The notes under the pieces: model-generated | Seen by the model: only the letters and a program-made list of their open reading frames with translations | What the model was told of the DNA's origin: nothing | Database searches by the model: none | From: Bacteroidales bacterium | Lineage (GTDB): Bacteria; Bacteroidota; Bacteroidia; Bacteroidales; JAAYJT01 | Assembly (NCBI GenBank): GCA_014860575.1 | Contig: JACZJK010000005.1 | Location: 186,001-250,000, forward strand | Direction: 5' to 3' | DNA length: 64,000 nt | Translations under genes and position numbers: made by a program | Part shown: piece by piece, positions 9,558 to 59,797 of the stretch | Layout: the number at the start of each line of letters is the position of its first letter | Position numbering within the stretch: position 1 is the stretch's first letter

Positions 9558-9601
9558 CAAAACTCTGCCCAGATGGCTATGTTATTCAGTATTTGCCAGG
9601 G

Positions 9602-9636: not shown

Positions 9637-9654
9637 ACTTGATAATTAAGTTTA

Positions 9655-11565: not shown

Positions 11566-11829
11566 AGTAAATTATCTTTTCTGATTAACAAATATTTTCA
11601 GGTTTCGTTACCCAAGTCAATGATTGTGCCAAGCTGCCTCCTATGCAATATTCGCATTGGCATTTCATATGTGCGAGCTTGCTTTTACGAAGGATGGCTT
11701 TAGTCAAAACAAATTAATTACCAGTCGCTTAGCTGATTTTACAGAGTCAATAAATGAGGGAAGTGTTTAAAATTCCGGATCGTAGATGAAAGTGGAATGA
11801 ATGACAATTAGTCAGAAACTATGAGGCAA

Positions 11830-12819: not shown

Positions 12820-12849
12820 AAATATTATTGAGATAGCGATATAGGTTTG

Positions 12850-12857
12850 CAAAGGTA
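12850..12857 (-). promoter_or_regulatory. TAnnTTTG -7 box of the lipoprotein gene
   Basis: The minus strand reads TACCTTTG, inside the 15-mer GCTACCTTTGCAAAC (12845-12859). The identical 15-mer occurs on the plus strand at 12960-12974 in front of panB. Confidence 0.6.
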
Positions 12858-12961
12858 GCAATAATCAGATTAGCTTCATTTTCCATTAACGCTGAATGCC
12901 TGGGTTTATGATAAAAATGAATGGAAATACCGGAAAGTTCTGCAAACGCATACCGATTTGC

Positions 12962-12969
12962 TACCTTTG
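12962..12969 (+). promoter_or_regulatory. TAnnTTTG -7 box of panB
   Basis: TACCTTTG lies within GCTACCTTTGCAAAC, the same 15-mer as in the divergent promoter. The panB ATG is at 13043, giving a leader of roughly 65 nt. Confidence 0.58.
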
Positions 12970-13042
12970 CAAACTTGTTTAATTATCGCCATCGTAGTTG
13001 GCGTAATCATCGGGGAACTAAACATCAGTAATAATTTGACGC

Positions 13043-13855
13043 ATGACTAAAGTAATTGCCAGAAAAGTTACCACCCATGTGCTTCAGGAGATGAAGCTGA
13101 AAGGTGAAAAAATTTCAATGCTAACAGCCTATGATTTTTCAATGGCACGGCTTGTTGAGGCTGCCGGCATTGATGTGATCCTTGTTGGGGATTCCGCTTC
13201 AAATGTAATGGCAGGGCATAACAGTACGCTGCCTATTACGCTGGATCAGATGATCTATCATGGCAGTTCAGTTGTGAGGGCTGTAACAAGGGCGTTCGTG
13301 GTGGTTGATATGCCTTTTGGAACCTACCAGGGCAATTCAAAGGAAGCGCTGTCGTCATCTATCCGTATCATGAAAGAAACAGGCGCTGATGCTGTGAAAC
13401 TTGAAGGCGGCAAAGAAATACTTGAATCCATTGACCGTATCCTCTCAGCAGGAATACCCGTGATGGGGCACCTGGGCCTGACACCCCAATCCATACACAA
13501 GTTTGGAACCTATGTGGTGAGGGCAACCGAAGAAAGCGAAGCAAAAAAACTTGTTGAAGATGCGCATCTTCTTGAACAATCGGGTTGTTTTGCGTTGGTA
13601 CTTGAAAAAATACCAGCCAAACTAGGTGGAGATGTAGCCAATGCGTTAAAGATCCCTGTAATTGGCATTGGAGCAGGCAGGTACGTTGATGGGCAGGTGT
13701 TGGTTCTACATGATATGCTCGGGATCACACAGGAATTCTCACCAAGGTTTTTACGCCGCTATCATAATCTCAGTGAAGAAATTCAAGGTTCCGTGCGAAC
13801 CTATATCAAGGACATTAAGTCACTGGAGTTTCCAAATGAAAGGGAGCAATATTGA
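13043..13855 (+). CDS. panB: 3-Methyl-2-oxobutanoate hydroxymethyltransferase
   Basis: PanB transfers a hydroxymethyl group from methylene-tetrahydrofolate to 2-oxoisovalerate, giving ketopantoate for pantothenate and CoA synthesis. The 270-residue length is typical. Conserved blocks are [47 protein letters not shown], the VLEKIP stretch with the likely catalytic glutamate, and [20 protein letters not shown]. These carry the Mg-binding Asp/Asp/Glu set. No other pantothenate gene lies nearby. The downstream gap is filled with word-like repeats before an unrelated pseudouridine synthase gene. Confidence 0.96.
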
Positions 13856-13860
13856 TTTAA

Positions 13861-14021
13861 ATCCAAAGGCCAAAGTTCAAAATTCAAAGTCTCAAATCCC
13901 AAGCCCCAAATCCCAAGACTCAAGACCAGAATCCAAAGCTCAAAATTCAAAGAACAACGAATTAACTACTCAACACCGCAATACTCCAATACTCCACTAC
14001 TCCATTTCCCCAATATTCAAC
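13861..14021. repeat. Word-like low-complexity repeats between panB and the RluA gene
   Basis: About 160 bp are made of drifted short units: 7-11 bp forms of CCAAATCC / AATTCAAAG (13861-13962), then forms of AATACTCCA / ACTACTCCA (13968-14010). The same units recur near 7.7, 14.9, 49.4 and 51.8 kb. No gene or RNA is supported. Confidence 0.75.
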
Positions 14022-14030
14022 TAAGCCCAA

Positions 14031-14732
14031 ATGGATGAAATTGACTATATAAGCCTGCGTGTTCTTTTTGAGGACAATCATTTGCTCGTGTTAAACAAGC
14101 GTGCCGGCGATATTGTGCAGGGCGATAAAACAGGAACAGAACCCTTACTGGATAAAGCCAAAGCTTACATCAAAGTAAAATACAACAAACCCGGGAATGT
14201 TTATCTGGGCCTTCCGCACCGGCTCGATCAACCGGTAACCGGAGCGGTTATTTTTTCCCGCACTTCAAAATCCCTTGCACGCCTGAACCAAATGCTACAG
14301 GATCATGAGATCACAAAAATATATTGGGCCATTGTTAAGAACCGCCCACCGGTTGATGAAGGAACGTTAATTCATTTCATGTCGCGCAACCGGGAGAAAA
14401 ATAAATCCTATGCTTTTGCCACTCCACGAAAAGATTCACAACGGGCAGAGCTAAAGTATACACTCATTGCCTCAAGCGAACATTACCATTTACTTGAAGT
14501 AGAATTGCTCACCGGTCGTCATCATCAAATCCGCTCACAACTTTCCATCAGTGGCTGCCCGATAAAGGGCGATCTGAAATACGGCGCCCCCCGCCCCAAT
14601 GAGGATGCTTCAATTCACCTTCACGCCCGAAAGTTGATGTTTGCTCACCCAGTTTCAGGCGAAGCGCTCAATATCATAGCGCCGGTTCCATCCGATCCAC
14701 TGTGGCAGTATTTTGAAAACATTCTTGGCTAA
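14031..14732 (+). CDS. RluA-family pseudouridine synthase
   Basis: The 233-residue enzyme isomerises specific uridines in rRNA or tRNA. The family motif HRLDQPVTG places the catalytic aspartate at residue 66, and the later LLTGRHHQIRSQLS block is the second conserved RluA motif. It lacks an S4 RNA-binding domain, so it is the short single-domain form, resembling RluA/TruC-type enzymes more than RluD. The exact RNA target cannot be inferred. The ATG at 14031 lies right after a block of word-like repeats, and no promoter box was recognised. Confidence 0.9.
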   Translation: MDEIDYISLRVLFEDNHLLVLNKRAGDIVQGDKTGTEPLLDKAKAYIKVKYNKPGNVYLGLPHRLDQPVTGAVIFSRTSKSLARLNQMLQDHEITKIYWAIVKNRPPVDEGTLIHFMSRNREKNKSYAFATPRKDSQRAELKYTLIASSEHYHLLEVELLTGRHHQIRSQLSISGCPIKGDLKYGAPRPNEDASIHLHARKLMFAHPVSGEALNIIAPVPSDPLWQYFENILG

Positions 14733-15061
14733 CACAATCCCAGCTTTATCTTGCCGACCATTGCTTATTCAAAGCCTATCAACTTCCCACTCAATCAGCC
14801 AGATAATCTTCAATAGCTTTCTGTAGTCAAGTATCTGCACACTAAACTACTGCACAACTGCATCACTGTTTCACTGCATTACAGCATCACAACATTACTC
14901 CAGACTTGGACAGGCTCAGCCATCCGATTCCATTACTCCATCACTCCATTACTCCATTCCTACTGCATCACTGTAACACTGCATCACAATCCAAAAGCAG
15001 AGAAAAAATACTGGCAGATTTAGCCAGATTCTGATAACTTTGCCATAAAAAGCAGCAGGTT
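14733..15061. repeat. Gene-free gap before mutS with word-like repeats
   Basis: The first 110 bp show nothing recognisable. From 14841 to 14993 the sequence consists of drifted CTGCATCACTG / CACTGCATTACAG units and CCATTACTCCATCACTCCA units, interrupted by a short unique stretch near 14900-14930. The mutS promoter box follows at 15035. Confidence 0.72.
15035..15042 (+). promoter_or_regulatory. TAnnTTTG -7 box of mutS
   Basis: TAACTTTG lies 19 bp before the GTG at 15062. It is directly downstream of the repeat block, so the repeats are probably not transcribed with mutS. Confidence 0.52.
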
Positions 15062-17689
15062 GTGAAAGAAGGTCAGAAAGGCAATATGGTTGAAACCCCC
15101 TTGATGAAGCAGTATTACTCCATCAAGGCGAAATATCCTGATGCATTGTTGCTTTTCAGGGTGGGCGATTTTTATGAAACCTTCGGCGAAGATGCCATCA
15201 AAGCCTCGAAAATACTTGGTATTGTACTCACAAGGCGGGCCAATGGCGCTGCTTCTTATGTTGAACTGGCCGGCTTTCCACATCATGCATTGGATACCTA
15301 TTTACCGAAGCTGGTAAGATCGGGACTGCGGGTTGCCATTTGCGATCAGCTTGAAGACCCAAAGCTAACCAAGACAATAGTAAAGCGCGGAGTAACAGAA
15401 CTTGTAACCCCCGGCGTTTCCTACAACGACAAAACGCTGGATCATAAGGCAAATAATTTCCTGGCCAGCATACATCTTCAACCTGTCACTTCCGGTATAA
15501 GTTTCCTGGATGTTTCCACCGGTGAGTTTTATCTTGCCGAAGGTTCGAACGAATATATTGATAAACTTCTTCAGGCTTTCCAACCCAGCGAAATCATCAT
15601 TCAAAAAAGCAAACGCCATCGTTTTGCCGAACTATTTGGCGACAAGTTTTACACCAATACTTTTGAAGATTGGGTTTTTACCTTCGACTTTGCCCACGAA
15701 CTCTTACTCAAACATTTCAAAACGGTATCCTTGAAAGGTTTTGGAATTGATGAGCAGAACCAGGGCACGATTGCTGCCGGTGCAGCGCTGCATTACCTCG
15801 CCGAAACACACCATGACAAGGTGGAACATATCTGCAAGATTTCGCGCATCGAAGAAGAAAACTACGTTTGGCTCGATAAATTCACGATCCGAAATCTTGA
15901 GCTGATCAGCTCAGTGAACGAAAATGCCGCTACTTTGCTCAATGTAATGGATCGAACCATTTCTCCGATGGGTTCGCGCATGATGAAACGCTGGATTGTG
16001 CTGCCGCTGAAAAACCGCAAGCCCATTGAGGAAAGACATGAAATGGTGGAGTTTTTCATTCAGCATCCGGAAGTTGTACAGGTTTTGAATCAGCAGATCA
16101 AAGTGATCGGCGACCTGGAGCGCCTGATTTCTAAAGTGGCAGTACGCCGTGTGAACCCCCGTGAAGTTGTGCAATTGAAGAGAGCGCTTGATGCGCTGAT
16201 CCCGATCAGGGAAGTGTTGGCTTCATCAGGTAAGGCAGCGCTCAAAATTATTGCTGAGCAATTGAACCCCTGTACACTTATCAGCACCCGGATCGAAAAA
16301 GAGGTTCAAACAGAGCCTCCGGTGCAGGTTCAAAAAGGCGGTGTGATTGCCGATGGCGTGAATAGCGAACTTGATGAACTGCGCAAACTCTTGTATTCAG
16401 GAAAAGATTTTCTGGTTCAGATCCAACAGCGGGAAATTCAGAACACAGGTATAGCTTCACTGAAAATAGGCTACAACAACGTTTTTGGGTATTATCTTGA
16501 AGTTACCAACACGCATAAAAATAAAGTCCCGCCTGAATGGCACCGTAAGCAAACGCTGGTGAATGGCGAGCGCTATATTACTGAAGAACTTAAAGTTTAC
16601 GAACAAAAAATTCTTGGCGCTGAGGAAAAGATCCTCGCTCTCGAGCAACGCTTGTTTGATGATTTGGTGCTGGCTCTTTCTGACTATATCGAACCGGTTC
16701 AGCTCAATGCATCGCTGATTGCCCGCCTTGATTGCCTGCTATCATTTGCTGCCATTGCTATTGAAAACAATTATGCACGGCCGGTAATGAATGATTCGTG
16801 GGCGCTGGACATTCGAGGAGGGCGGCACCCGGTGATCGAAAAACACATGCCAACAGGAGAAGAATACATTGCCAATGATGTTTACCTCGATCATGAAACC
16901 CAACAGATAATGATTATCACCGGGCCGAATATGTCCGGAAAATCGGCTTTGCTCAGGCAAACAGCGCTGATTGTGCTGATGGCGCAGGCCGGAAGTTTTG
17001 TTCCGGCCAGTGAAGCGACCCTCGGCGTAGTTGATAAGATTTTTACCCGGGTCGGAGCATCTGATAATATCTCGTCTGGTGAGTCCACTTTTATGGTGGA
17101 AATGAATGAAACAGCAAGCATTCTCAATAATGTTTCGAGCCGCAGCCTGATCCTGCTCGACGAGATAGGCCGTGGCACCAGCACCTACGATGGAATTTCC
17201 ATTGCCTGGGCCATCGCAGAATATCTGCATGAGCATCCACTGTTCAACCCCAAAATCCTGTTTGCCACTCACTACCACGAGCTGAATGAAATGGCGGCTT
17301 CATTCCCGCGCATCAAGAATTTTCATGTGGCAGTAAAAGAACTTGGCAATAAAGTGATATTCCTGCGCAAGCTTAAGCCTGGCGGAAGCGAACACAGTTT
17401 CGGGATACATGTAGCCCGTATGGCAGGGATTCCTTCAACTGTAATAGATCGTGCGAACCAATTGCTGAAGCAACTGGAGCAATCGCACAGCCATGAAACA
17501 CTTACAAGCAAGGGACGAAAAACAGGCAAACAAGCATCCGACCAATACCAGTTAAGCTTTATCCAACTGAATGATCCATTACTGGAACAAATCCGCGAAG
17601 ACATTCTCAACACCGATATAAACACGCTCACACCGGTTGAGGCGCTGATGAAACTAAATGAGATCAGGATGTTGATTGGGAAGAAATGA
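15062..17689 (+). CDS. mutS: DNA mismatch repair protein MutS
   Basis: MutS recognises mismatches and small loops and starts repair with MutL. The 875-residue protein has the mismatch-binding FYE motif (residues 37-39, in [10 protein letters not shown]), connector, lever and clamp domains, then the ABC-type ATPase with Walker A GPNMSGKS at 621-628, a signature region near [11 protein letters not shown], and Walker [15 protein letters not shown] helix-turn-helix dimerisation tail follows. The start is taken as GTG at 15062; an ATG at 15086 ([11 protein letters not shown]) is an equally possible start and would keep all motifs. Confidence 0.97.
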
Positions 17690-35740: not shown

Positions 35741-36129
35741 GTATAATGTGTTGAAGTTGATTTCCACACCAGAACATAAAACGCAAAAAGATCGGCGCAA
35801 TGTTTTCTCAAGTTTATTGAGGTTGCATTCAAATAGGTAATGGAATTTTCATACCACTTGCGAACATAACTTCCGTAGCATGACTCATTGTTTGTCATCC
35901 GGGAGCGAAATTTAGATAAATAGTCTATTATTGCACACATGTGTATTATTTAAAGCTTTGAACCTAGGCTAAGTGCCAATAAATAAAAAGGTAGCGGTGT
36001 ATTAATTAAATGATTATTTATAACTTGGCCTATTCATTATTGTTTATTTTTGGTTTGCAAATTTGTATTATCCAAATTAACAGACTCTTGACAAGCGAGC
36101 TACAACTTAGGAGAATTCGAAAGAGAAAT
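35741..36129. other. Regulatory gap before the HTCS gene
   Basis: The AT-rich gap has no supported gene. A short palindrome ACACATGTGT lies at 35935-35944. I found no exact TAnnTTTG box for the HTCS. An alternative HTCS start at 36010 lies in this stretch and would add 40 residues. Confidence 0.5.
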
Positions 36130-39100
36130 ATGCATTTTAATTTTACGATCCTCCTAATTTCAATAACGGCTTTTGGTAAAATTTTGTTTTCATCAAATCC
36201 TTATAACTTTGCTGAAGATTTTGCCTATTCAACCCGGCAAATTTCCATATCTAATGGCCTTCCATCAAACGTTGTAACAGCAATCATTAAGGACGATTAT
36301 GGATTTGTGTGGTTCGGAACAACAAAGGGTTTATGCCGATGGGATGGTATTAGTGCGATTGTTTTCCAGCAAAACCAAACCGACAGCACCTCACTAATTG
36401 GTAACCGGATACCGCGCAACGGACTATGTTGGGATGAAAAAAGACAGCATTTGATCGTCGGGACAAATGAGGGAATCAGTATGTTCGATCCGTTAACAGG
36501 GGTTTGTAGTAATTACTATGTCAATCCTGCTGAACCCCGATCCATCCCGGCACCGGTAAACACGATATTTACCGATAAGCAGGGAATAATTTGGGTCGGT
36601 ACTGACAATGGGTTCAGCCGGTTCAATTCTTTATCCGGAGATTTCGACACTTTTAAGCTTGATAAAAATCTACCTGCAGGGGTCATTCTCGACCGGATTT
36701 CAACCAACATGATCCATGATATCTGTCAGGATCTGAATAATGATTCCATCTTATGGCTTGCATCCCTGGCTGGTTTGCTAAAGTATAACAACCATACCGA
36801 AAGCCTTTCATGGTTTTATTATCCCGATAAGGACTACATCCGTGAGATAAACCAGTTTAACCTGATTGTTCCTCACCCGGATGGGAAACTTTACCTGGGT
36901 ACGTGGAACTTTGATATGGTTGTTTTCGACACCCAAACCGAAAAATTTTCCGGACGTTTTGGGCCATCAACCCAAGAAGCATCTTCCATTACGAATAGAA
37001 TTGCACCTTGTGCAGTGCACCCTGATGGTGGTGTCTGGATTTCATCATTGCAGGGATTAGGGATATTGAATCCGCAAAATGGTAGAATCAATTTTATCAA
37101 GTCCTTCAAAAACGAAAGTGGGCACCGTTTTGCCCCCGAACTTTATTTTACGGATAAAGAAGGGCAATTGTGGCTGGGTTCAGAGACAGGCGTATTTATC
37201 CTCAATCCTGGGAATCATCCGGTAAACAACTTTTTTTTGAATCCTTTAGATGAGGATCATTGGTATCTAACCCTTTCTCTTTTTGAGGATACCTTGAAAA
37301 ACGAATTGCTTATTGGCTATGGCCGGGGCGAAGGATTACATTATTTCGATTTAATAACAAACAGTTTCGGAATAACTCCCTACAAACAAAGGATTATATC
37401 TGAATACAATCTGGTCGAAATTATTCGATTACAAAACGGGGAGATATTTTTTTTGGCTTCTGATGAAATTTATCAATATTTTCCCGATAGTAAAAAAACT
37501 AAAGCCCTGAATTATCCTTACGCCCATTTTCCGGCTTTTACTGATATCAAGCAGGATACAACAGGCCATATCTGGGTAGCTTCCGGAAACCTGGGATTAC
37601 AGCAGTACATAGATGAGAACAACAATGTAAAAAACATTCGTAACTGGAGCGACATTTTTACCACGGGTCATGAACTCCCCTTGTTTAGTGAATTGTGCAT
37701 TGACCCTCAAAATAGGATATGGTTTCGGCGCAGAGGCGAATCCTACGGTTATTATGATCCACAAACAGATTCATTACGTTATTTCAAAGATGCTGAAAAT
37801 AAATATGACCTGACTTGTTTCGGCGAAATTTCCGGAGATACGCTTTGGGTAGCAATTGCAACTCATGGATTAGGTTTTATTGATTTGAAGAACCCTGAGG
37901 AAGGCGTAAAACTGAGTAATTTTCTCAGTTCCATAAAAACCGGAATGATTGGGGATATGGCTTTTGATCAAAGGGGAAGGCTTTGGTGCATGGCAGAGAA
38001 GGGCCTTTTCCGCATCAATACAAATTCGGGAGCATCGGTTCTGTTCGATGAAAATTACGGAATACCACTCCTCGATGCCTGGTCAGATAAAGGTGCCCTC
38101 ATTCCCGGCCAACTAAAATTATTGTCGGATGGACGCATGGCCATCAGTTACCGGCGTGGTCTCGGGTTTTTCCATCCCGACAGCCTCAAAGTTTTATACC
38201 GGACACCTGAACCCTATTTCATATCTATCAGGATTTTTGATAAAGTGATTTCAACCATCAACGATGATACATTGAAGCTGCGATACAATGAAAACTTTTT
38301 ATCATTCCGCTATTCAGCACTGGAACTTTATCATCAAGGCATCTCATTCCAGCACAAACTTTCAGGTGTGGATACGGACTGGTATGAAAATCCCTCCGTG
38401 CATGAAGTTGCCTACCCAAATCTTCAGCCTGGGTCGTATCAGTTCAAAGTGCAGGCCGTGTCCGAATCCGGCCTGGGCGAAACAAAAGAATTGGTGCTAA
38501 ACTTCAAAGTTTTACCACCCTGGTGGAAAACAGTATGGGCTTTTGTACTCTTTTTATTGCTGATAGCCGTGCTGTTTTATGTGCTTTACCGTTTCCAGAT
38601 CAAACGGCAGTTGGCTCATCGCGAAACCCTTCGCCTGCTCGAGATGGATGAGCTAAAAACCAGGTTATATGCCAATATCACCCATGAATTCCGCACACCC
38701 ATTACCGTGATTATGGGACTGGCTGAAGAACTTACCCATTCGTTTGAAACCATCGAAAAGATTCAATTCAGAAAAAGCATGGAAACCATTCAACGAAGTG
38801 GCGGCAACCTGCTTCACCTGGTCAACCAGATGCTCGATCTTGCCAGGCTGGAGCAAGGTAAACTCAAATACAACCCCATCCTGTCCAATATCATTCCCTG
38901 GCTTCAATACATCGTGGAAAGCCATCAATCGTTGGCTTCCACCAAAGAAATCCAACTCACTTTTTACTCCGAAACCGAATTACTGGAGATGGATTATGAT
39001 TCCGATCAGCTTTCAAAAGTAGTTTCGAACCTGCTCACAAATGCTATAAAATTTACAGAAAAAAGAGGCAAAGTAATCTGTCATGTGAAATTTGAATTCT

Positions 39101-40197
39101 CTGCCAATACCCTTCACATCAAAGTAAAAGATACCGGTGTGGGCATTCCGGAAGGTGAACAATCCAGGATATTCGACCGCTTTTACCAGGTGGAATCAGC
39201 AGTTCAGCAAAACAGGGGCGGAACCGGCATCGGACTTTCGTTGACAAAAGAGATCGTAGAACGGATTGGCGGTACCATTTCTGTAAAAAGCCAGCCAGGA
39301 AAAGGAAGTGAGTTTGAAGTGGTAGTGCCGGTTTCCCGGAATGCTAAGGGAATTTCATCCAATAGTGTGCAAGTTGAGAAACTGTTGATCCAACAGACAA
39401 TACCTACCGATGTTTTTGAAGAAGATCAGCCCGAAATTGGAAATATAAAACCCTTGGTACTGATTGCGGAAGACAATCCAGACGTGGCCGCTTATATTCG
39501 CGACATCATCCGGAAACAATACAAGGTGAAATGGGCGTCAGACGGTGAAAAGGCTATTCAAATGGCTTTTGATCTCATTCCCGACCTGGTGATCACCGAT
39601 GTGATGATGCCCGGTAAGGATGGGTTTGAGGTTTGTAATTCCTTAAAAACCGATGAGCGTACCGACCATATTCCTGTGATCATGCTCACCGCGAAAGTTA
39701 GTGATACCGACCGGATTTCAGGTTTTGAACGGGGGGCAGATGCTTATCTTACCAAGCCTTTCAACAAAAAGGAATTGCTGGTAAGGATTGAGCAACTACT
39801 CCGGCTTCGCAGGCAATTGCAAGCTAAATTTGGTAAACTGGAATTTAGAGCCGGGCCTGAAATTCCGGCAAGTCGGGAAGAACAATTTATTCTGAAAGCT
39901 TTTCAAATTGTGGAAGCCAATCTGGAAAAATCCATATTTAATGCCACTGACCTGGCCAGTGAGGTCCACCTCAGCGAAAGCCAGCTATACCGGAAACTGA
40001 AAGCCATCTCCGGTAAATCCACAGCCATTTTCATCCGGACGATCCGGCTGAAGAAAGCAAAAGAATTACTCGAAACGACCAACCTGTCTGTTTCCGAAAT
40101 CGCATACGAAGTGGGATTTAACGATCCGGCCTGGTTCAGCCGCGTGTTTAAGGAAGAGTTTGGGCTGTCGCCGACGGAGGCTAAATTGAAAAGTTAA
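36130..40197 (+). CDS. Hybrid two-component system regulator (HTCS)
   Basis: The 1355-residue one-protein signalling system has these parts: signal peptide; a periplasmic beta-propeller (about residues 30-690) with repeated FGTTKGLCRWDG / VGTDNGFSRFNS / WLGSETGVFIL units; a Y_Y_Y domain before a membrane helix (about 800-823); histidine kinase with His852 in ANITHEFRTP and the ATP-binding DTGVGI and GGTGIGLSL; a receiver domain with Asp1157 in ITDVMMPG; and a C-terminal AraC-type helix-turn-helix. HTCS proteins normally sense glycans and control polysaccharide loci. Here the downstream genes are surface fibres and T9SS proteins. ATG 36130 starts at the signal peptide; ATG 36010 is an alternative. 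Confidence 0.95.
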   Translation: MHFNFTILLISITAFGKILFSSNPYNFAEDFAYSTRQISISNGLPSNVVTAIIKDDYGFVWFGTTKGLCRWDGISAIVFQQNQTDSTSLIGNRIPRNGLCWDEKRQHLIVGTNEGISMFDPLTGVCSNYYVNPAEPRSIPAPVNTIFTDKQGIIWVGTDNGFSRFNSLSGDFDTFKLDKNLPAGVILDRISTNMIHDICQDLNNDSILWLASLAGLLKYNNHTESLSWFYYPDKDYIREINQFNLIVPHPDGKLYLGTWNFDMVVFDTQTEKFSGRFGPSTQEASSITNRIAPCAVHPDGGVWISSLQGLGILNPQNGRINFIKSFKNESGHRFAPELYFTDKEGQLWLGSETGVFILNPGNHPVNNFFLNPLDEDHWYLTLSLFEDTLKNELLIGYGRGEGLHYFDLITNSFGITPYKQRIISEYNLVEIIRLQNGEIFFLASDEIYQYFPDSKKTKALNYPYAHFPAFTDIKQDTTGHIWVASGNLGLQQYIDENNNVKNIRNWSDIFTTGHELPLFSELCIDPQNRIWFRRRGESYGYYDPQTDSLRYFKDAENKYDLTCFGEISGDTLWVAIATHGLGFIDLKNPEEGVKLSNFLSSIKTGMIGDMAFDQRGRLWCMAEKGLFRINTNSGASVLFDENYGIPLLDAWSDKGALIPGQLKLLSDGRMAISYRRGLGFFHPDSLKVLYRTPEPYFISIRIFDKVISTINDDTLKLRYNENFLSFRYSALELYHQGISFQHKLSGVDTDWYENPSVHEVAYPNLQPGSYQFKVQAVSESGLGETKELVLNFKVLPPWWKTVWAFVLFLLLIAVLFYVLYRFQIKRQLAHRETLRLLEMDELKTRLYANITHEFRTPITVIMGLAEELTHSFETIEKIQFRKSMETIQRSGGNLLHLVNQMLDLARLEQGKLKYNPILSNIIPWLQYIVESHQSLASTKEIQLTFYSETELLEMDYDSDQLSKVVSNLLTNAIKFTEKRGKVICHVKFEFSANTLHIKVKDTGVGIPEGEQSRIFDRFYQVESAVQQNRGGTGIGLSLTKEIVERIGGTISVKSQPGKGSEFEVVVPVSRNAKGISSNSVQVEKLLIQQTIPTDVFEEDQPEIGNIKPLVLIAEDNPDVAAYIRDIIRKQYKVKWASDGEKAIQMAFDLIPDLVITDVMMPGKDGFEVCNSLKTDERTDHIPVIMLTAKVSDTDRISGFERGADAYLTKPFNKKELLVRIEQLLRLRRQLQAKFGKLEFRAGPEIPASREEQFILKAFQIVEANLEKSIFNATDLASEVHLSESQLYRKLKAISGKSTAIFIRTIRLKKAKELLETTNLSVSEIAYEVGFNDPAWFSRVFKEEFGLSPTEAKLKS

Positions 40198-40243
40198 TTC
40201 GGTTCTTTCACCAGATCCATCTGAATAGCCTCAATTAATTGAC

Positions 40244-40285
40244 TTTGCAACAATACCATTAGCCTTTGCAGAAATACCACAAGCC
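40244..40285 (+). repeat. Tandem 21-bp direct repeats upstream of the first surface gene (putative operator)
   Basis: Two adjoining 21-bp units (40244-40264 and 40265-40285) share 17 of 21 bases, with the core TTTGCA..AATACCA..AGCC. The following CTCCAAATGAAGCT block (40291-40304) also occurs at 41826-41839. A two-helical-turn spacing suits a dimeric AraC-type regulator such as the adjacent HTCS. Confidence 0.6.
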
Positions 40286-40315
40286 ATTCACTCCAAATGA
40301 AGCTATTTTAGCTGA

Positions 40316-41758
40316 ATGAAAAATAAAATATATAAACTCATTTTGCTTACACTTATCGGACTTGGACCGATTACTGTAAGCGCGCAAAACACCTGGACTA
40401 AAACCTATGGTGCAAATAATGACGATGAAGGGAATGTAGTCCAACAAACTTTTGATGGCAGCTATATCATTACCGGGAACACATTTCCAAATCAGCCCTG
40501 GGATTCTGATCTCTATCTCATTAAAACAAACAACTTCGGCGACACCGTCTGGACAAAAACCTATGGTGGAGCGGGCAATGAAATCGGTGTTGATGTAAAG
40601 CAAACAACAGATAATGGGTATATCATTGTTGGGTACAATGCAACGATGGAGTCAGGAGGCTTCGATGTCTGGTTATTAAAAACAAACAGCAGCGGGGACA
40701 CTTTGTGGACCAAAAAATTTGGGGGCCCTAACAATGATTTCGGTAACTCGGTTTTCCAAACCGATGATGGCGGTTATGTAATTATTGGTTCTACAGTATC
40801 GTTTGGGGCCGGCTTTTCCGATTTTTGGATCATAAGAACAAACACCGTTGGTGATTCGTTGTGGTCGCAGACCTATGGCGGAATTTATAACGACATTGCC
40901 TTTGAAGCGCAGGCAACATCAGACGGGGGCTATATTATAGCAGGGTACACACAGTTGCAGGGATTTAATGATGTTAATGTCTGGCTGCTTAAACTATTTA
41001 GCAATGGTGAAATTGAATGGTCACAAACCTATGGCGGCAGTCTGGCCGGAATTGCCAATTCGGTGCAGGAAACGGCTGATGCAGGATATATCGTTACCGG
41101 TGGAGGTCCGGATCTGTTTTTGATTAAAACGGATATGTACGGCGATACACTCTGGACCAAAACTTTTGGCGGAGACAGGAATGATGCCGGCTATTCAGTC
41201 ACCGAGACAGCAGAAGGTGACTTCTTAGTGTGTGGAACTACTTCTTCGTTTTCGGCAGATGGGGATTTTGATCTCTGGCTGATCAAAACAGACATCAGCG
41301 GATATACCTTATGGACAAAAACCTATGGGGAAACCGGCGCTGAAATAGGCTTTTCCATAATTGAAACCTTTGACGGCAGAATAACAGTTTGTGGTTTTAC
41401 CTCATCCTTTGGAGCCGGTAAAATAGATGTCTGGCTACTCCACCTTGATGCAAACGGGCAGGTTGGTATTGCAGATCATCTATCCACGAAGCCGAAAGGA
41501 TATAGACTGGGTCAGAATTTTCCAAATCCGTTTTCTGGCGAAACTACAATTTATTATTCCATCCCAACATCAGGAACCGTATCCCTGGAAGTTTTTGACT
41601 TATCAGGTAAGCTCATAACAACATTGGTGCATGAATACAAGCATGCCGGAAGCTATTCGGTTCGTTTTGAAAACAAGCAACTACCAAACGGAATTTACTA
41701 TTACCGCCTGCTATCAGGCAACTTTAATTGCGCGAAGCAATTAATTTTGAGCCGGTAA
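40316..41758 (+). CDS. T9SS-sorted secreted repeat protein
   Basis: The 480-residue protein has a signal peptide (ending TVSAQ), seven repeats of about 50 residues each starting with a W(T/S)KTYGG motif and containing DGGYIIxG and WLIKTN segments, and a C-terminal type A sorting domain of about 80 residues (LGQNFPNPFSGETTI at its start, ending LILSR). The repeats look like a beta-propeller or related beta-rich fold. The CTD directs export through the type IX system and attachment at or release from the cell surface. A TATTTTAG sequence ends only 4 bp before the ATG, so the true promoter position is unclear. Confidence 0.88.
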   Translation: MKNKIYKLILLTLIGLGPITVSAQNTWTKTYGANNDDEGNVVQQTFDGSYIITGNTFPNQPWDSDLYLIKTNNFGDTVWTKTYGGAGNEIGVDVKQTTDNGYIIVGYNATMESGGFDVWLLKTNSSGDTLWTKKFGGPNNDFGNSVFQTDDGGYVIIGSTVSFGAGFSDFWIIRTNTVGDSLWSQTYGGIYNDIAFEAQATSDGGYIIAGYTQLQGFNDVNVWLLKLFSNGEIEWSQTYGGSLAGIANSVQETADAGYIVTGGGPDLFLIKTDMYGDTLWTKTFGGDRNDAGYSVTETAEGDFLVCGTTSSFSADGDFDLWLIKTDISGYTLWTKTYGETGAEIGFSIIETFDGRITVCGFTSSFGAGKIDVWLLHLDANGQVGIADHLSTKPKGYRLGQNFPNPFSGETTIYYSIPTSGTVSLEVFDLSGKLITTLVHEYKHAGSYSVRFENKQLPNGIYYYRLLSGNFNCAKQLILSR

Positions 41759-41777
41759 ATTCTGTTTTGATTAACCT

Positions 41778-41819
41778 AATGCAGAAATACCACAAGCCTT
41801 CGCAGAAATACCACAAGTT
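41778..41819 (+). repeat. Second pair of 21-bp direct repeats (putative operator)
   Basis: Units 41778-41798 and 41799-41819 share the 16-mer GCAGAAATACCACAAG and match the second unit at 40265-40285. They are followed by the shared CTCCAAATGAAGCT block and a TAATTTGG sequence (41838-41845), a near -7 box. The next gene starts at 41867. Confidence 0.62.
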
Positions 41820-41866
41820 ATTTACTCCAAATGAAGCTAATTTGGCTGTAAATAAAAACAACTGGT

Positions 41867-44650
41867 ATGAACAAGGCAAAAACTACTTTTCTAACAGCAA
41901 TCTTCCTCTTCAGCACCCTCATCACATTTTCACAGGGAGTTGGTATTAACAATGATGAATCCAATCCGGATCCATCGGCTATCCTGGATGTGAAATCAAC
42001 AACGCAGGGCATGTTGGTTCCGAGGATGACTGCTGCACAGGCTTTTGCAATTTCAAATCCTGCTGAAGGATTGTTGATTTATGCTACCGATGCCCAAAGT
42101 TTTCTGTATTTCAAATCAGGCACCTGGGAATACCTGACCAGTGAATTTGCACGGGAAATAGCCGATTTTGATTTCGATACGAGAATTACAACAGGCAATG
42201 GTTTACATCCGGATGATGACCTGATTGAATTTTATCTTGGCAATTATAGCGAACCAAAATATAGGATAGATTCCTTAAGAATTGAACCTTTGATTGGGAG
42301 TATTTTTATTGGTAGGGATGCTGGGAAAAACGCAACTATATTTGAAAAAATAATAGCTTTTGGGGATTCCGCTTTGATGAATAATAGTGGAGCCTATAAC
42401 ATGGCCATCGGTAATAAAAGTTTATTGAATAATTCAATCGGAGAAGGAAACCTTGCAATCGGTGTAAATGCGTTGGAAGAAAACATTAATGGAAAATTTA
42501 ATGTTGCTATTGGTTTTTACTCATTAAACAATAATATTTCAGGGAATAGCAACGTGTCACTGGGAAACGGTTCCCTATTTCGAAATGAAACAGGGAGCTC
42601 AAACGTTGCAGTTGGCAAGTCTGCCTTATATGAATCACTTTCCGGAAGCTATAATACGGCAATTGGCTGGCAATCTATGGGCTTCAACATAAGCGGAAGG
42701 GCAAACACTGCCATCGGGTATAGTGCACTTGAGGGTGATCAAAATGGATTTTCAAATGTTGCCATTGGGGTAAATGCTGCTTCACAGGGGAGCGGCCAGC
42801 ATAATGTGGTTGCCATCGGTGATTCGGCATTGTATAGCAACCTGGAATCAGGCAATGTGGCCGTGGGTTCAAAAGCCATGTTTAGCAATACAACAGGCAC
42901 CACCAATACCGCAATCGGGTATGAGACACTCTATTCAAATACCGTTGGTAATTACAACTCAGCTTTTGGTTATACTGCCCTTGCTACTAATACAATCGGA
43001 GCAGGGAATACAGCAATTGGCTGGAGATCAATGTATCAAAACACTCTTGGTGATGAGAATACAGCTGTTGGATTTTCTGCGCTTCTCTCCAATCAGGATG
43101 GCCAACAGAATACGGCTGTGGGTGCAGGTTCTCTTGGCGATAACACAGGTGGAAGTGCAAATTCTGCTTTTGGGAGGGGTGCAATGATTAGCAATTCTAC
43201 GGGAAGTTTAAATACGGCAGTGGGAACTTATGCGCTTTTTAATAATTCAACCGGGCAATCTAATGTGACCATAGGTGCCATGGCTGCTTTTACCGGAGTA
43301 TCAGCCAGTAATGTGGTTGCCATTGGCGATTCGGCACTGTTCAATAATCTTGTATCAGAAAATGTGGCGGTGGGGTCGAAGGCACTTTACTCAAACACAA
43401 CTGGTGATAATAATACAGCAACTGGTTCTTATGCACTCTATTCCAACTCGATAGGCTATTATAATACAGCAACTGGCATATCTGCACTTGAATCCAATAC
43501 ATTAGGATATGATAATACAGCAACTGGTGCTCATGCGCTCAGTAGCAATACAACTGGGAAATATAATACAGCAGATGGTGTATTCGCACTTGGATATAAC
43601 ACAACCGGAAATCACAATTCAGCATACGGATTTTTTACACTTTATAACAATACAACCGGATATTCAAATGTAGCCATAGGCGCTGGTGCGGCTTTTAATA
43701 GTCAAACGGTTAGTAATACAGTTGCCATTGGCGATTCAGCATTGTATTATAATGGCACCGGAGCGACAGGATTTTATGAAGGAAAATACAATACAGCTGT
43801 GGGTTCAAAAACACTATTTTTGAATAATACAGGATACTCTAATACGGCTGTTGGTCATAATGCCCTCCGTGGAAACCAGGGCGGTTATGAAAATACTGCA
43901 ATGGGCAATACTGCCTTATATTATAATATCAATGGATATGCAAATACGGCCCTTGGTAATTATGCCCTTTCAACAAGTAATTCCGGATCTATGAATACTT
44001 CCATCGGAAACCATTCATTACAATCCAATGGTTCAGGTAATCGAAATACCGCAGTCGGAAATTATGCAGGGCAAAACACCATAAGCGGCAGCTATAATAC
44101 CATGATAGGAGCTTACACAAGTTTTTCTACATCATATAATAATTCGGCTGCGCTGGGGGATGCTGTAAACATTACAGCCAGCAACCAGATAAGGTTGGGT
44201 GATGCAGGTGTCAACAGCATCGGCGGATATGCCAACTGGACCAATATTTCCGATAAACGGTTTAAAACCAATGTCAGCAAAGATGTTCCCGGGTTGGATT
44301 TCATTAAACTTCTTGAACCGGTAACCTATAATCTGGATGTATCAGCGATCAATGATTTTTTGGGTGTTGATAATTCCGAAAAAGCAGAAGTACTTGCAGA
44401 ATCCGGAAAGGAGAACATGAAAATGACCGGATTGCTGGCCCAGGACGTGGAGACGGCGGCCCTATCGATAAGCTACGATTTCAGCGGTGTAGATGCACCC
44501 AAAAATGATAAAGACACTTATGGCCTTCGTTATGCCGAGTTTGTTGTGCCACTGGTAAAAGCTGTGCAGGAGCTTGCCGAAGAAAACCAGGAACAGCAAG
44601 CTTTGATAAAAACATTATTTGAACGTATTGAAATACTTGAAAACAAATAA
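41867..44650 (+). CDS. Fibre-like protein with YadA-head-like repeats and C-terminal peptidase S74 chaperone
   Basis: The 927-residue protein has a signal peptide (ending ITFSQ), a conserved N-terminal domain (GVGINNDESNPDPSAILDVKS, then GMLVPRM and GLLIYATD), then about 35 repeats of 17 residues with the pattern NTAIGxxALxxNTxGxx, like the left-handed roll of YadA heads. The last 133 residues are a peptidase S74 domain, where Ser795 and Lys800 in SDKRFK match the self-cleavage dyad. A short coiled coil ends the protein. By analogy with phage tail fibres it should trimerise and may shed its chaperone. There is no YadA anchor and no T9SS tail. A paralogue follows 7 bp later. Confidence 0.88.
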   Translation: MNKAKTTFLTAIFLFSTLITFSQGVGINNDESNPDPSAILDVKSTTQGMLVPRMTAAQAFAISNPAEGLLIYATDAQSFLYFKSGTWEYLTSEFAREIADFDFDTRITTGNGLHPDDDLIEFYLGNYSEPKYRIDSLRIEPLIGSIFIGRDAGKNATIFEKIIAFGDSALMNNSGAYNMAIGNKSLLNNSIGEGNLAIGVNALEENINGKFNVAIGFYSLNNNISGNSNVSLGNGSLFRNETGSSNVAVGKSALYESLSGSYNTAIGWQSMGFNISGRANTAIGYSALEGDQNGFSNVAIGVNAASQGSGQHNVVAIGDSALYSNLESGNVAVGSKAMFSNTTGTTNTAIGYETLYSNTVGNYNSAFGYTALATNTIGAGNTAIGWRSMYQNTLGDENTAVGFSALLSNQDGQQNTAVGAGSLGDNTGGSANSAFGRGAMISNSTGSLNTAVGTYALFNNSTGQSNVTIGAMAAFTGVSASNVVAIGDSALFNNLVSENVAVGSKALYSNTTGDNNTATGSYALYSNSIGYYNTATGISALESNTLGYDNTATGAHALSSNTTGKYNTADGVFALGYNTTGNHNSAYGFFTLYNNTTGYSNVAIGAGAAFNSQTVSNTVAIGDSALYYNGTGATGFYEGKYNTAVGSKTLFLNNTGYSNTAVGHNALRGNQGGYENTAMGNTALYYNINGYANTALGNYALSTSNSGSMNTSIGNHSLQSNGSGNRNTAVGNYAGQNTISGSYNTMIGAYTSFSTSYNNSAALGDAVNITASNQIRLGDAGVNSIGGYANWTNISDKRFKTNVSKDVPGLDFIKLLEPVTYNLDVSAINDFLGVDNSEKAEVLAESGKENMKMTGLLAQDVETAALSISYDFSGVDAPKNDKDTYGLRYAEFVVPLVKAVQELAEENQEQQALIKTLFERIEILENK

Positions 44651-44657
44651 ACGCAAT

Positions 44658-46901
44658 ATGAAAACACATCGATTACTATTAACTATTGTGGCAGCCATGC
44701 TTTCATTAGTATCCTTTTCACAGGGTGTAGGTATCAATAATGATGAATCTGATCCGGATCCCTCAGCGATGCTGGATGTAAAATCCACCACACAGGGCAT
44801 GTTGGTGCCGCGGATGTCTGCAGCTCAGGCTTTTGCAATCTCAAATCCTGCCGAAGGATTGTTGATTTATGCTACCGATGCCCAAAGTTTCCTGTATTAT
44901 AAATCAGGTACCTGGGAATACCTAACCAATGAATTTGCCCGGGAAATAGCAGATTTCGATTTCGACACAAGAATTACAACAGGTAATGGTTTGGATCCGG
45001 ATGATGATATTATTGAAATCTATCTTGGCAATGCGACGAATCCAAGATACAGGATTGACTCCATGCGGATTGAACCTTTATCTGATAATATTTTGATCGG
45101 CAGCAATACAGGGATTTTCAACCAAACCGGCAAAAGCAACATCGCCATTGGTAACGGGGCATTAAGAAGTAATGACAGCATTTCAGGCCTTGTTGCTATT
45201 GGTGATTCAGCGCTGTTATATAATTTCAGTGGTTGGGATCCATTCTTCATTCAGGGTGAAGAAAATACAGCCATAGGATTCAAAGCGCTTATGTTTAATT
45301 CTTATGGTTCTTTTAACACAGCATTAGGGTACGAAGCTCTAAAAAAAAATACAGCGGGGTATGGAAATACGGCTATCGGAACAAGAGCGCTTCTTAACAA
45401 CAACAGCACTATTTCAACCTCAGAATGTATCAACAACACCGCTGTTGGTGCATTTTCCCAGGAAGGTACTACCAAAGGCAGTTACAATACTTCGGTTGGT
45501 TCACATTCGCTTCATGCCAATTCTGACGGCAACAACAATTGTGCATTCGGATATCTCGCCTTATCTACAGCTTCGGGCAATAACAATTCTGCCTATGGAA
45601 CTCGTGCCCTGCAAGCCAATTGGGGCGGAAATTCGAATGTAGGAATCGGTTATATGGTGCTGTTGAGCAATCAGTCAGGAAGCAACAATGTTGCTGTAGG
45701 CATTGGTGCTGCTGCTCTTGGGCAAACGGCAGATCATGTAGTAGCCATTGGCGATTCGGCACTGTACAACAACACGCAGTCATTTAATACCGCAGTGGGC
45801 TCAAGTGCCTTGCTCCACAATGTCAATGGATTTTGGAATACGGCTATTGGCAGAAAGGCACTTTATGCAAACACCTCAGGTATTTTCAATACAGCTAACG
45901 GAAATTCTGCTCTTTCTTCCAATACAGAAGGATATCAAAATACAGCCATCGGGGTTGAAGCCTTACATTCGAATTTATTGGGTTACAACAATACAGCCAA
46001 TGGCTTCCAGGCTTTATATCACAATTCAGGGGGGAATTTGAACGTGGCCATGGGCACATCGGCTTTGTATCAAAATGTAAGTGGAAGCAATTCAGTTGCC
46101 ATTGGTTTAAATGCGTTATTCAATAATAATACTTCAGGAAATGTGGCAGTTGGCTCCGAAGCTGCCTGGCAAGGCACTACAGCTTTCAGTATTACAGCAT
46201 TAGGGCAGCAAGCACTATATACCAATACAGTAGGATATGGAAATACCGCTATTGGTGACAAAGCCCTGTATTCAGTTGATTATGGTAACAGGAATACAGC
46301 AGTGGGTAATGAGGCAGGATATGCTTTACCTCAGGGTTCATACAATACCATAATAGGTGCCTCTGCCACTACTCCTGCCAGTTATATTTCTAATTCAGCG
46401 GCACTGGGTGACGCGGTATCAATCACTGCCAGCAATCAAATCCGCTTGGGAGATGCCGGTGTAACCAGCATTGGTGGATATGCCAACTGGACCAATATTT
46501 CCGATAAACGGTTTAAATCCAATGTTTCGAAAGATGTTCCCGGGTTGAAATTCATTCAATTACTTGAGCCGGTAACCTATAATCTCAACATCAGTGCCAT
46601 CAACAATTTTCTGGGTGTAGATTATGCTGAAAAAGAAGAAGCCCTGGCTGAATCAGGAAAAGACACCATGAAGTTTTCCGGATTTTTTGCACAAGATGTA
46701 GAAGCAGCATCCCGTTCAATAGGTTATGATTTCAGCGGTGTAGATCCTCCTAAAAATGCTAAAGATACCTATGGCCTTCGTTATGCGGAATTTGTAGTTC
46801 CCCTGGTAAAAGCTGTGCAAGAACAACAGGCCATCATCGAAGCACTGATGAAAAGGATCGAGGTATTGGAAAATGAAAAAAGTTCTTCAGCAAACCATTA
46901 A
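44658..46901 (+). CDS. Paralogous fibre-like protein with YadA-head-like repeats and S74 chaperone
   Basis: The 747-residue protein repeats the layout of its upstream neighbour: signal peptide (ending VSFSQ), the same N-terminal domain with long identical stretches, about 25 repeats of 16-18 residues, and a closely similar S74 domain with Ser615 and Lys620 in SDKRFK. Both ends are nearly identical to the neighbour while the repeat number differs, so it arose by tandem duplication. The start is ATG 44658, 7 bp after the previous stop; an upstream in-frame ATG at 44619 lies inside the neighbouring gene and precedes the signal peptide. Co-transcription is likely. Confidence 0.87.
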   Translation: MKTHRLLLTIVAAMLSLVSFSQGVGINNDESDPDPSAMLDVKSTTQGMLVPRMSAAQAFAISNPAEGLLIYATDAQSFLYYKSGTWEYLTNEFAREIADFDFDTRITTGNGLDPDDDIIEIYLGNATNPRYRIDSMRIEPLSDNILIGSNTGIFNQTGKSNIAIGNGALRSNDSISGLVAIGDSALLYNFSGWDPFFIQGEENTAIGFKALMFNSYGSFNTALGYEALKKNTAGYGNTAIGTRALLNNNSTISTSECINNTAVGAFSQEGTTKGSYNTSVGSHSLHANSDGNNNCAFGYLALSTASGNNNSAYGTRALQANWGGNSNVGIGYMVLLSNQSGSNNVAVGIGAAALGQTADHVVAIGDSALYNNTQSFNTAVGSSALLHNVNGFWNTAIGRKALYANTSGIFNTANGNSALSSNTEGYQNTAIGVEALHSNLLGYNNTANGFQALYHNSGGNLNVAMGTSALYQNVSGSNSVAIGLNALFNNNTSGNVAVGSEAAWQGTTAFSITALGQQALYTNTVGYGNTAIGDKALYSVDYGNRNTAVGNEAGYALPQGSYNTIIGASATTPASYISNSAALGDAVSITASNQIRLGDAGVTSIGGYANWTNISDKRFKSNVSKDVPGLKFIQLLEPVTYNLNISAINNFLGVDYAEKEEALAESGKDTMKFSGFFAQDVEAASRSIGYDFSGVDPPKNAKDTYGLRYAEFVVPLVKAVQEQQAIIEALMKRIEVLENEKSSSANH

Positions 46902-47000
46902 CAAATAATCTTAACGGTTTTGAGAAATTGAACTTGTAGTTTCCCTTTCTCAACTTCCGGTAAAAATGGACTTAAAAAAAACACTCAAGCATAAAAGACA

Positions 47001-48161
47001 ATGAGAACAACCCTAACCCTTATGCTTACAATTCTGCTCACAGCAGGAGTGGCCCTTGCTCAAGGCATTAAAATCGGAACCAACATGATCATTACCGGTG
47101 GAACCGTTATGTATGTGGATGGTTATATTGTAGTTGATAATGACGGTGACCTCAAACTTGAATCCGGTTCAATCCTAAAACTAAGCGATGAGAAAACCCT
47201 CACCGTTAATGATGGCGGCATTCTCACCCTTAGGGGCGCTGATGGCGACCCCGTTACCGTTACCTCTGCCGGATACTTCGTATTCATTGTTAGTTCGGGT
47301 GGAACAATAGGCGCAGATTACGCGACTTTCGAAAAAATGAGCGGAGATGGGCTAAACATTCAATCAGGCGCTACCATTGACCCGGTATTCCCACTCAACA
47401 ACAGTATTTTTCAGAGCGGGTCATCTGGCAGCACTTTTCTCACCATCAACAACAGCCAGGAATTGACCATTGATGGTGTATCTTTCATCTCCACATCCGG
47501 CAATGAGTATTATAATGTTACCAAAACCCTTAACTTTGGCGAGGTAACCTTCACAAACTTCAACGGCAATTTTGCAGGCGAGACTTTTGAAAACGACCCC
47601 TTTAGTCGCATACATTGGAGCGAAGTACCGATAAACAGGCTGGTTGAAAACGTAACCGTTACCAACGGGCAGGAACTCTGTTTTGATGCCGTGCAAACCA
47701 TTTCGGTTCAAAATCTGCTGGTGCAAAGTGGCGGTATTTTTCATTTGGTGTCCGGACAGTCGGTATTGCTGCTTCCGGGTGTAATTGTTGAAAGCAATGG
47801 CTACCTGCACGCATGGATTGACCCTGACGGATTCTATTGCAGCAATGCCAAAGCCATTGTGGCTGCAACCGACCAGCCTATTCCTGAAATCATATTTGAG
47901 GGAACCTTGCCATTCGTTCAGGGCATAAGCGTTTATCCCAATCCCACCACAGGCATTATTACCCTTGAACTACCTGAAACAGAAGAAAACTCAACTGCCA
48001 AAGTTGAGATTTACGGCATGATGGGCGAGTTGGTTCAGCAGGTTACACTTTTAAATGAAAGCGGATATAAGTTCAACCTCGACGAAAATCCACACGGCAT
48101 ATATATCATTTGGGTGCTGCAGGGGGAGAAGCTATATTGGCAAAAAATAATTAAGCAGTAA
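47001..48161 (+). CDS. T9SS-sorted secreted protein with beta-helix-like body
   Basis: The 386-residue protein has a signal peptide (ending VALAQ), a body of short beta turns (GTVMYVDGYIVVDNDGDLKLESG and similar) resembling a right-handed beta-helix, and a type A sorting domain starting at VYPNPTTGIITLELP near residue 312 and ending in KIIKQ. It is therefore exported by the type IX system. It lies 99 bp after the second fibre gene and is probably part of the same regulated cluster. Function unknown. Confidence 0.83.
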   Translation: MRTTLTLMLTILLTAGVALAQGIKIGTNMIITGGTVMYVDGYIVVDNDGDLKLESGSILKLSDEKTLTVNDGGILTLRGADGDPVTVTSAGYFVFIVSSGGTIGADYATFEKMSGDGLNIQSGATIDPVFPLNNSIFQSGSSGSTFLTINNSQELTIDGVSFISTSGNEYYNVTKTLNFGEVTFTNFNGNFAGETFENDPFSRIHWSEVPINRLVENVTVTNGQELCFDAVQTISVQNLLVQSGGIFHLVSGQSVLLLPGVIVESNGYLHAWIDPDGFYCSNAKAIVAATDQPIPEIIFEGTLPFVQGISVYPNPTTGIITLELPETEENSTAKVEIYGMMGELVQQVTLLNESGYKFNLDENPHGIYIIWVLQGEKLYWQKIIKQ

Positions 48162-58287: not shown

Positions 58288-58429
58288 GTTTTAATTGCTG
58301 AAGGGAAGATGATTGGAATAAGGTTCATTCGGATTTATTTGAAAAATAAACTTTCAACCAATACAAAGCTGTGACCCAATTTGCAAACCGGCTTTATTGT
58401 CTCTATCTTCGTGTACTTTTTCCGTATTC

Positions 58430-59797
58430 ATGCAATCACTTAATATTATTCACTGGTGGTTTGGATTGATTTGCTTTTTCATGCTTATGAAAACATCAAC
58501 AGGGCAGGAGCAATATCAGATCCCGTACAATACCAGTGACATATTTATTGACGGGGATCTCAGCGATTGGAACCATTTCCTGTCAATTTTCTTTTCTGAT
58601 ACGCTCGCCCAGCTTTGTCCCGTTCCGGATCGTGCTCTAAAGGCTTTCTATGACGATAAAGTTGACTACACAAAAACCTGGCATCCACTTTCGAAAAACG
58701 ATATTGAGATTTGGATTTGCTGGAACGTAAATTTTCTTTTTTTAGCTTTCAAGGTAGAAGATGAGCATCTTTTCAGCGAAGTTAAACCTGCTGAAGATCG
58801 GTTCCCGATTCAACTGAATGATGGAATTGAATTATATATTGATGCGAAAAACGATAGCTATCGGAAAATGGACTTCAATGATTACCAGTTTTTGGTTGAT
58901 GTTTCAGGAAATAGCGTTGTTTACCGTGGCGATAAACAAAGGTTCAATATTGATACCGTACAGGTTCCAAAATTAGCAGGACAGAACATCTATTATGAAA
59001 CGGCCGTCCGGTATCTGAATAATACAGTGGGTTTTGAAACAGGCTACTTAGTTGAACTTGCCATTCCATTCGCTGCTATAGGCATGAGACCCGAAACCGG
59101 TCTTAAAATGAAAATTGATTTGTGTAATAATGATATTGATTACTCATTAGAAGGTGCACAAACCTACGCTGATACTGCTTTACGCTATTGGGCATTTAAT
59201 ATGAGCGGGTACAGCGATTTCGGTTTCCCGGAAACATGGAAAACGATGCAACTGGCCGGAGCTCCGGGCTATATCGAAAGGCTCAGTGCGGCCAAGATTA
59301 GCAGGTATTTTAAGATATATATTTCCGTGCTTGTGATTTCCATTTTAGTAATCAGCTTTTTGTTGATCCGCATGAGAAAATTGCACAAACTTCCGGCGCG
59401 TGAAGATCTGCATCCTCAATCAATATTATTTCTTGAGAAACCGGGCACGGCTCAATATGCCGTAAGTGATGACCAGAAAATCCTTCAACAAGCTACTGAT
59501 TTCATTAGCAGGAATAGTCATGAAACAATCAATTCAGAAATGCTTGCCAAACACCTTGGGGTTTCATTAAGAAAACTTCAACGCATTACACGTGAAGAAC
59601 TATCATGCACTCCAACCAATTTTATTTATATCCTTAAGCTTAATCTTGCTGCTGAGTTCCTGAGGCAAGGAAAAGCCAACGTATCTCAAACCGCCTATGA
59701 ATTTGGTTTTTCTGACCCCGGATATTTCACCCGCCTCTTTCACAAACACTTTGGCGTTTCACCGATTGAATATCTGGCCACCCACAGTTCTGCATAG
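58430..59797 (+). CDS. Membrane-anchored AraC-type regulator with CBM9-like sensor domain
   Basis: The 455-residue protein combines an N-terminal signal/anchor, a periplasmic domain (about 30-285) resembling family 9 carbohydrate-binding modules (FIDGDLSDW, LAFKVEDEHLF, NDGIELYIDAKND), one membrane helix (about 293-316) and a cytoplasmic AraC helix-turn-helix (about 365-450, ending YFTRLFHKHFGVSPIEYL). It could couple binding of a carbohydrate outside the cell to transcription, but this is inferred from the layout. ATG 58430 is preferred to a TTG at 58397. The large exported protein gene downstream is a possible target. Confidence 0.85.
   Translation: MQSLNIIHWWFGLICFFMLMKTSTGQEQYQIPYNTSDIFIDGDLSDWNHFLSIFFSDTLAQLCPVPDRALKAFYDDKVDYTKTWHPLSKNDIEIWICWNVNFLFLAFKVEDEHLFSEVKPAEDRFPIQLNDGIELYIDAKNDSYRKMDFNDYQFLVDVSGNSVVYRGDKQRFNIDTVQVPKLAGQNIYYETAVRYLNNTVGFETGYLVELAIPFAAIGMRPETGLKMKIDLCNNDIDYSLEGAQTYADTALRYWAFNMSGYSDFGFPETWKTMQLAGAPGYIERLSAAKISRYFKIYISVLVISILVISFLLIRMRKLHKLPAREDLHPQSILFLEKPGTAQYAVSDDQKILQQATDFISRNSHETINSEMLAKHLGVSLRKLQRITREELSCTPTNFIYILKLNLAAEFLRQGKANVSQTAYEFGFSDPGYFTRLFHKHFGVSPIEYLATHSSA

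Follow-up and report, generated by a model that had tools for sequence, protein, structure and literature searches.

A hybrid two-component regulator (HTCS) of a Bacteroidales bacterium heads a five-gene locus for two fibre-like S74 proteins and two proteins sorted for type IX secretion (T9SS), and a conserved, operator-like element lies ahead of two of the genes that follow it. On this evidence the phosphorylated HTCS probably activates two promoters for a surface fibre set, which would make this a dedicated, signal-controlled locus.

Organisation of the locus

The locus lies in a window of 64,000 nt (G000:C5:186001-250000), the whole stretch of DNA analysed here, from a host genome of 4.4 Mb in 66 contigs. 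Pfam matches and open reading frames give five genes on the forward strand in the order HTCS, T9SS, S74, S74, T9SS (Table 1). The initial annotation had described just this, an HTCS followed by two S74 and two T9SS-sorted genes with no glycan gene in the locus, and the description was borne out. No SusC, SusD or glycosidase was found among 25 window proteins scanned, the five-gene locus included; the regulator does not have beside it the SusC/SusD pair and glycan enzymes of a polysaccharide utilisation locus. Both flanks are housekeeping: on one side lie genes for a type I phosphomannose isomerase (reading away), a thioredoxin-like protein, a DUF6029 protein and Omp28, and on the other those for lipoyl synthase and LipB. 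Elsewhere in the window (58397-59797), an AraC-type regulator carries CBM9_1; carbohydrate-binding domains are not usually combined with an HTH.

Table 1. Coordinates, in the window, of the five genes and the two predicted operator/promoter elements
Feature	Position	Strand	Details
HTCS	36130..40197	+	Pfam; longest ORF 36010-40197
Predicted operator/promoter 1	40246..40311	+	half-sites 40247-40262 and 40268-40283; 20 nt; box TATTTTAG 40304-40311
PROP, T9SS-sorted beta-propeller-like protein (gene 2)	40316..41758	+	Por_Secre_tail 36.2 bits (cut-off 27)
Predicted operator/promoter 2	41780..41845	+	half-sites 41781-41796 and 41802-41817; 20 nt; box TAATTTGG 41838-41845
S74a	41867..44650	+	Peptidase_S74 27.9 bits (cut-off 22)
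S74b	44658..46901	+	Peptidase_S74 25.3 bits (cut-off 22); 44619 is merely an upstream TTG
Gene 5, T9SS-sorted protein with short repeat region	47001..48161	+	Por_Secre_tail 47.1 bits

The HTCS (1395 residues in its longest reading frame) carries Reg_prop, Y_Y_Y, HisKA, HATPase_c, Response_reg and HTH_18/AraC domains, all above the Pfam cut-offs, and so combines on a single chain the periplasmic sensor, kinase, receiver and AraC HTH that define its class. The start at 36130 (MHFNFTILL...), which yields a proper signal sequence, is as likely as that at 36010. The closest solved chains are 4a2l for the sensor and 12aw for the receiver and DNA-binding part; 4a2l is a sensor from a different hybrid two-component regulator, one that senses a glycan. 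The host genome encodes one other full HTCS, on contig C16 in a different context, and several further AraC-type HTH proteins. A scan of genome contigs yielded nothing but unrelated kinase and HTH matches.

In gut Bacteroides an HTCS usually turns on genes for sugar use. Even so, there is little ground for regarding its presence outside a glycan locus as unusual. Judged by eye, none of ten class-wide HTCS relatives adjoins a SusC/SusD pair, and HTCSs away from glycan loci seem to be common among the relatives looked at. Since such placement is not rare among them, what is new here is the conserved fibre output with its dedicated operator, rather than an HTCS away from glycan genes.

A candidate operator ahead of two genes

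Repeat finding revealed a 78-nt stretch, 82% identical between its two copies, upstream of both PROP (from 40246) and S74a (from 41780), despite these two genes being unrelated. Within it is a 66-67-bp element, in which two 16-bp half-sites (GCAnnAATACCAnnAG), spaced exactly 21 bp, are followed after exactly 20 nt by the box TAnTTTnG. This box resembles the -7 element TAnnTTTG of Bacteroidota promoters. Activators overlap the -33 region of the promoter, and a half-site ending 20 nt upstream of the box would do so. The two window places account for all matches to the strict half-site pattern in the host genome, and a looser two-half-site pattern, allowing up to 2 mismatches, found no further copy there (reversed control, 0). 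A matrix core score of 5.5 at 46625 was rejected, as it falls inside the S74b coding frame and within noise (6.6 at L139:862). No separate operator precedes gene 5, which may be transcribed by read-through or be under separate control.

In Bacteroides thetaiotaomicron, the predicted operators of HTCSs are direct repeats with an average of 21 bp between sites, and HTCS_Man uses a pair of 16-bp sites separated by 5 bp (PMC3878776). The window element has the same geometry. It thus shows what is expected of an HTCS operator, paired direct half-sites ∼21 bp apart upstream of neighbouring targets, both in its geometry and in its conservation, described below.

Conservation of the gene order and of the candidate operator

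When 119 relatives were searched for the HTCS with a limit of E 1e-150, the sole other genome matched was G068, which belongs to family f67 (17 genomes, one genus) and not to the family of the host; at the same limit the HTCS was not found in two genomes of the host's own genus. Full-length relatives with 68, 67 and 66% identity were present in G1110, G558 and G1114, respectively. In G1114 the order is HTCS, propeller, S74a, S74b and surface protein. G558 has this order with a third S74 gene and an inserted AAA_14/DUF4143 ATPase gene, the latter lying between the HTCS and propeller genes (L123 9913-11088), and G1110 has the HTCS, S74a, S74b and surface protein genes with the propeller missing. 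In G068 a propeller homologue follows the HTCS, and an S74 gene and a Fib_succ_major gene precede it. The HTCS of G713 is 45% identical and is followed by genes for an S74 protein and for a long protein with a gene-5-like part. With G1115, where the locus is split across two contigs, the HTCS has a propeller gene, S74 genes or both as neighbours in six genomes of f67, and the linkage drawn in the initial annotation proved to be a conserved one. Further f67 HTCSs (L149 and L150) adjoin other T9SS-sorted proteins, so T9SS cargo may more generally be under the control of HTCSs.

The non-coding element is conserved along with the genes. An ungapped alignment of eight sites, taken from the window, G1114, G558, G1110 and G068, shows the common pattern TGC-nnn-AATA...A, a 21-bp step, the proximal half-site GCAGAAATAnnACAAG, exactly 20 nt and TAnTTTnG. 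A matrix trained on the six f67 sites alone, with the window sites excluded, gave the two window sites 80.9 and 78.4 bits; no other position in the window exceeded -12.8, and the maximum in 1 Mb of random sequence of third-order composition was -3.3 bits. The whole 66-bp pattern had seven exact matches in the 17 f67 genomes and none when reversed. Six of these are the aligned sites, which precede PROP or S74a; the remaining one lies upstream of the propeller gene of G1115. An order-wide search of 393 genomes at up to 2 mismatches matched 31, which indicates that loose matches are common by chance; the exact matches in that search were solely in the host genome and G068. Because both the gene arrangement and the non-coding element recur in another family, the association of the HTCS with fibre genes is more than chance. 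Recent transfer between the families was considered and is possible, yet the identities (82-83% for ProRS between host and f67, against 67% for the HTCS) do not require it.

Diverged sites were also seen. Upstream of its second T9SS gene, G068 has ATAGTGCAAG twice, 21 bp apart, then 20 nt and TACATTTG, a diverged site of the same geometry, and a weaker diverged candidate with this geometry lies upstream of the S74 gene of G713. G648 has a similar variant at two places, one of them ahead of a surface-protein-like gene; these two direct-repeat sites, on two contigs (L166 and L169), are identical and may be an assembly duplicate. As operators, the diverged sites in the three genomes are suggestive candidates.

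The HTH domain follows the same trend. Its identity to that of the window HTCS is 83-88% in G1110, G1114 and G558 and 72% in G068, and falls to 39-63% in the compared HTCSs without such a strong operator alongside, G713 being at 63%. This co-variation bears on whether the element might instead be bound by a different regulator, or be an RNA leader, with the HTCS a mere neighbour. The several other AraC-type HTH proteins of the host genome make a different regulator conceivable, but the element accompanies this type of HTCS in both families, has the geometry of published HTCS operators, and is conserved where the HTH is conserved, with G713 offering just a diverged candidate. The element consists of direct repeats with a promoter-like box downstream, and Rfam gave no match in the locus; an RNA reading is unsupported. 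We consider it quite unlikely, overall, that the HTCS is a bystander. The conserved operator gives strong support to its predicted control of the four neighbouring genes.

G068 keeps the HTH and operator, yet its sensor propeller has just 16% identity to that of the window HTCS. This points to exchange, or extreme divergence, of the sensor with conservation of the output. Tentatively, there may be a dedicated HTCS family with a domesticated tailspike-like fibre output, in which the sensor is swapped between relatives and the HTH and operator stay constant, placing one output under different signals; we would lean slightly against this broader idea at present.

Products under predicted HTCS control

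PROP consists of repeats of ∼52 residues followed by Por_Secre_tail. A sequence search relates it to the CylK propeller (E 6e-13), and its low-confidence model (AlphaFold mean pLDDT 47.5) matches the same propeller in Foldseek (E 6.5e-11). Genes 2 and 5 both end in the tail domain and SprA is present in the host genome, as expected for T9SS cargo; the S74 proteins differ from such cargo, in that they start with a signal peptide but lack the T9SS tail. The short repeat region of gene 5 is, by reading, beta-helix-like.

S74a comprises a signal peptide, a Bacteroidota-type N-terminal region, 17-residue solenoid repeats, the S74 chaperone and the dyad motif SDKRFK, and S74b has the same architecture with a shorter repeat region. 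The self-cleavage dyad of S74 proteins is a Ser and a Lys (PMC3742443). Both residues are kept in the two window proteins, as SDKRFK, and both are also present in the locus relatives. In the window proteins the dyad, together with Peptidase_S74 matches above the Pfam cut-off, places both in the S74 class. For the C-terminal half of S74b the AlphaFold mean pLDDT is 52.1, and 60-83 for the solenoid part alone, which has a 17-residue period; Foldseek with the model of this half returned nothing significant, and a sequence search of solved structures with S74b gave no match. The assignment of S74a and S74b to the fibre fold class is well founded on tailspike homology, solenoid repeats and the Ser-Lys dyad. 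Near their 5' ends (41927-42226 and 44715-45014) the two genes agree at 87% of positions across 300 nt, and near their 3' ends (44140-44439 and 46391-46690) at 78%, with differing repeats in the middle, which suggests a tandem duplication with homogenisation of the ends.

That tailspike homology raises the question of whether the S74 genes are prophage remnants lying near the HTCS by chance. Both match PHROG tail spike family 4636 (1e-115 for S74a and 1e-80 for S74b), and residues 94-740 of S74b align with phage tailspikes at 32-36% identity. However, the best phage matches start at residue 94 or later, so that they cover neither the signal peptide nor an N-terminal region also found in other Bacteroidota surface proteins. 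Furthermore, housekeeping genes lie on both sides, and reading frames, dyad and gene order are kept in another family. A prophage origin by chance proximity is thus very improbable.

Tailspike-like S74 proteins are widespread in this group: of 60 genomes from the order, 23 encode similar ones. The host genome has a second cluster, on contig C43 (L070, G000:C43:166000-184708, at 6617-15791), with three S74 genes, two gene-5 paralogues and Fib_succ_major. One of these S74 copies has SDKRLY, in which the dyad Lys is lost. Neither an HTCS nor the operator was found in this cluster, so such S74 and gene-5-like proteins do not need this regulator.

Proposed mechanism

Taken together, the data suggest the following model. 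The periplasmic propeller of the HTCS would sense a ligand, and the kinase would phosphorylate its own receiver. The two AraC-type HTH domains of an HTCS dimer would then bind the paired 16-bp half-sites which, being 21 bp apart, lie on the same helix face. At the promoter-near half-site the HTCS would cover the -33 region and bring RNA polymerase to two promoters, the first producing the T9SS-exported PROP and the second the S74a-S74b-T9SS run. The S74 proteins would trimerise on the C-terminal chaperone and cut it off at the SDKRFK dyad, leaving tailspike-like fibres, and the T9SS proteins would be exported and placed at the surface. Of this scheme, the gene content and conserved order, the geometry, conservation and rarity of the operator, the dyad, the tailspike homology and the presence of SprA are observed. 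We infer that the HTCS binds the operator and activates, that it answers to a signal, that the S74 proteins are exported, that the four products assemble, and that they serve in adhesion. The signal-controlled surface fibre system proposed in the initial annotation is thus well founded for the fibre fold class and, through the predicted operator, strongly supported for control; its surface part fared less well, since S74a and S74b have no T9SS tail, and their export to the surface is tentative. Adhesion as the function of the locus is a guess.

The sensed ligand could be a polysaccharide. The locus would then be a disguised glycan system, with the propeller and fibres binding the polysaccharide and feeding a distant utilisation locus. 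Glycans are what most studied HTCSs respond to, phage tailspikes frequently bind or cleave them, and the closest solved relative of the sensor, 4a2l, comes from another hybrid two-component regulator. Nevertheless, neither the locus nor the scanned flanks contain SusC, SusD or a glycosidase, and no further operator copy was found in the host genome at up to 2 mismatches. We regard this as unlikely, and favour a dedicated fibre locus.

If so, HTCS control is not confined to glycan uptake but takes in a predicted surface fibre, in two families, with the cell probably making a surface structure in response to a signal. The mapped candidate operator defines a testable two-promoter regulon, and an operon under regulation offers a way to learn the conditions and reasons for making tailspike-like S74 proteins.

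Comparison with known systems

The S74 proteins resemble the phage tailspikes with an intramolecular chaperone (endosialidase and SPO1 gp2.52 type; PHROG 4636) in having a repeat region, a C-terminal self-cleaving chaperone, and a Ser and Lys five residues apart. They differ in their signal peptide, Bacteroidota-type N-terminal region and location in a chromosomal operon with no other phage genes. Genes 2 and 5 resemble T9SS cargo with a type A sorting domain, each ending in Por_Secre_tail above the cut-off in a genome with SprA, whereas the S74 proteins of the same operon are without the tail. Finally, the system shares with the HTCS regulons of B. thetaiotaomicron polysaccharide utilisation loci (PMC3878776) the domain order on one protein, a 21-bp direct-repeat operator ahead of the targets, and a regulator adjoining those targets. 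The targets themselves are SusC/SusD and glycosidases there, and fibre-like and T9SS-sorted proteins here.
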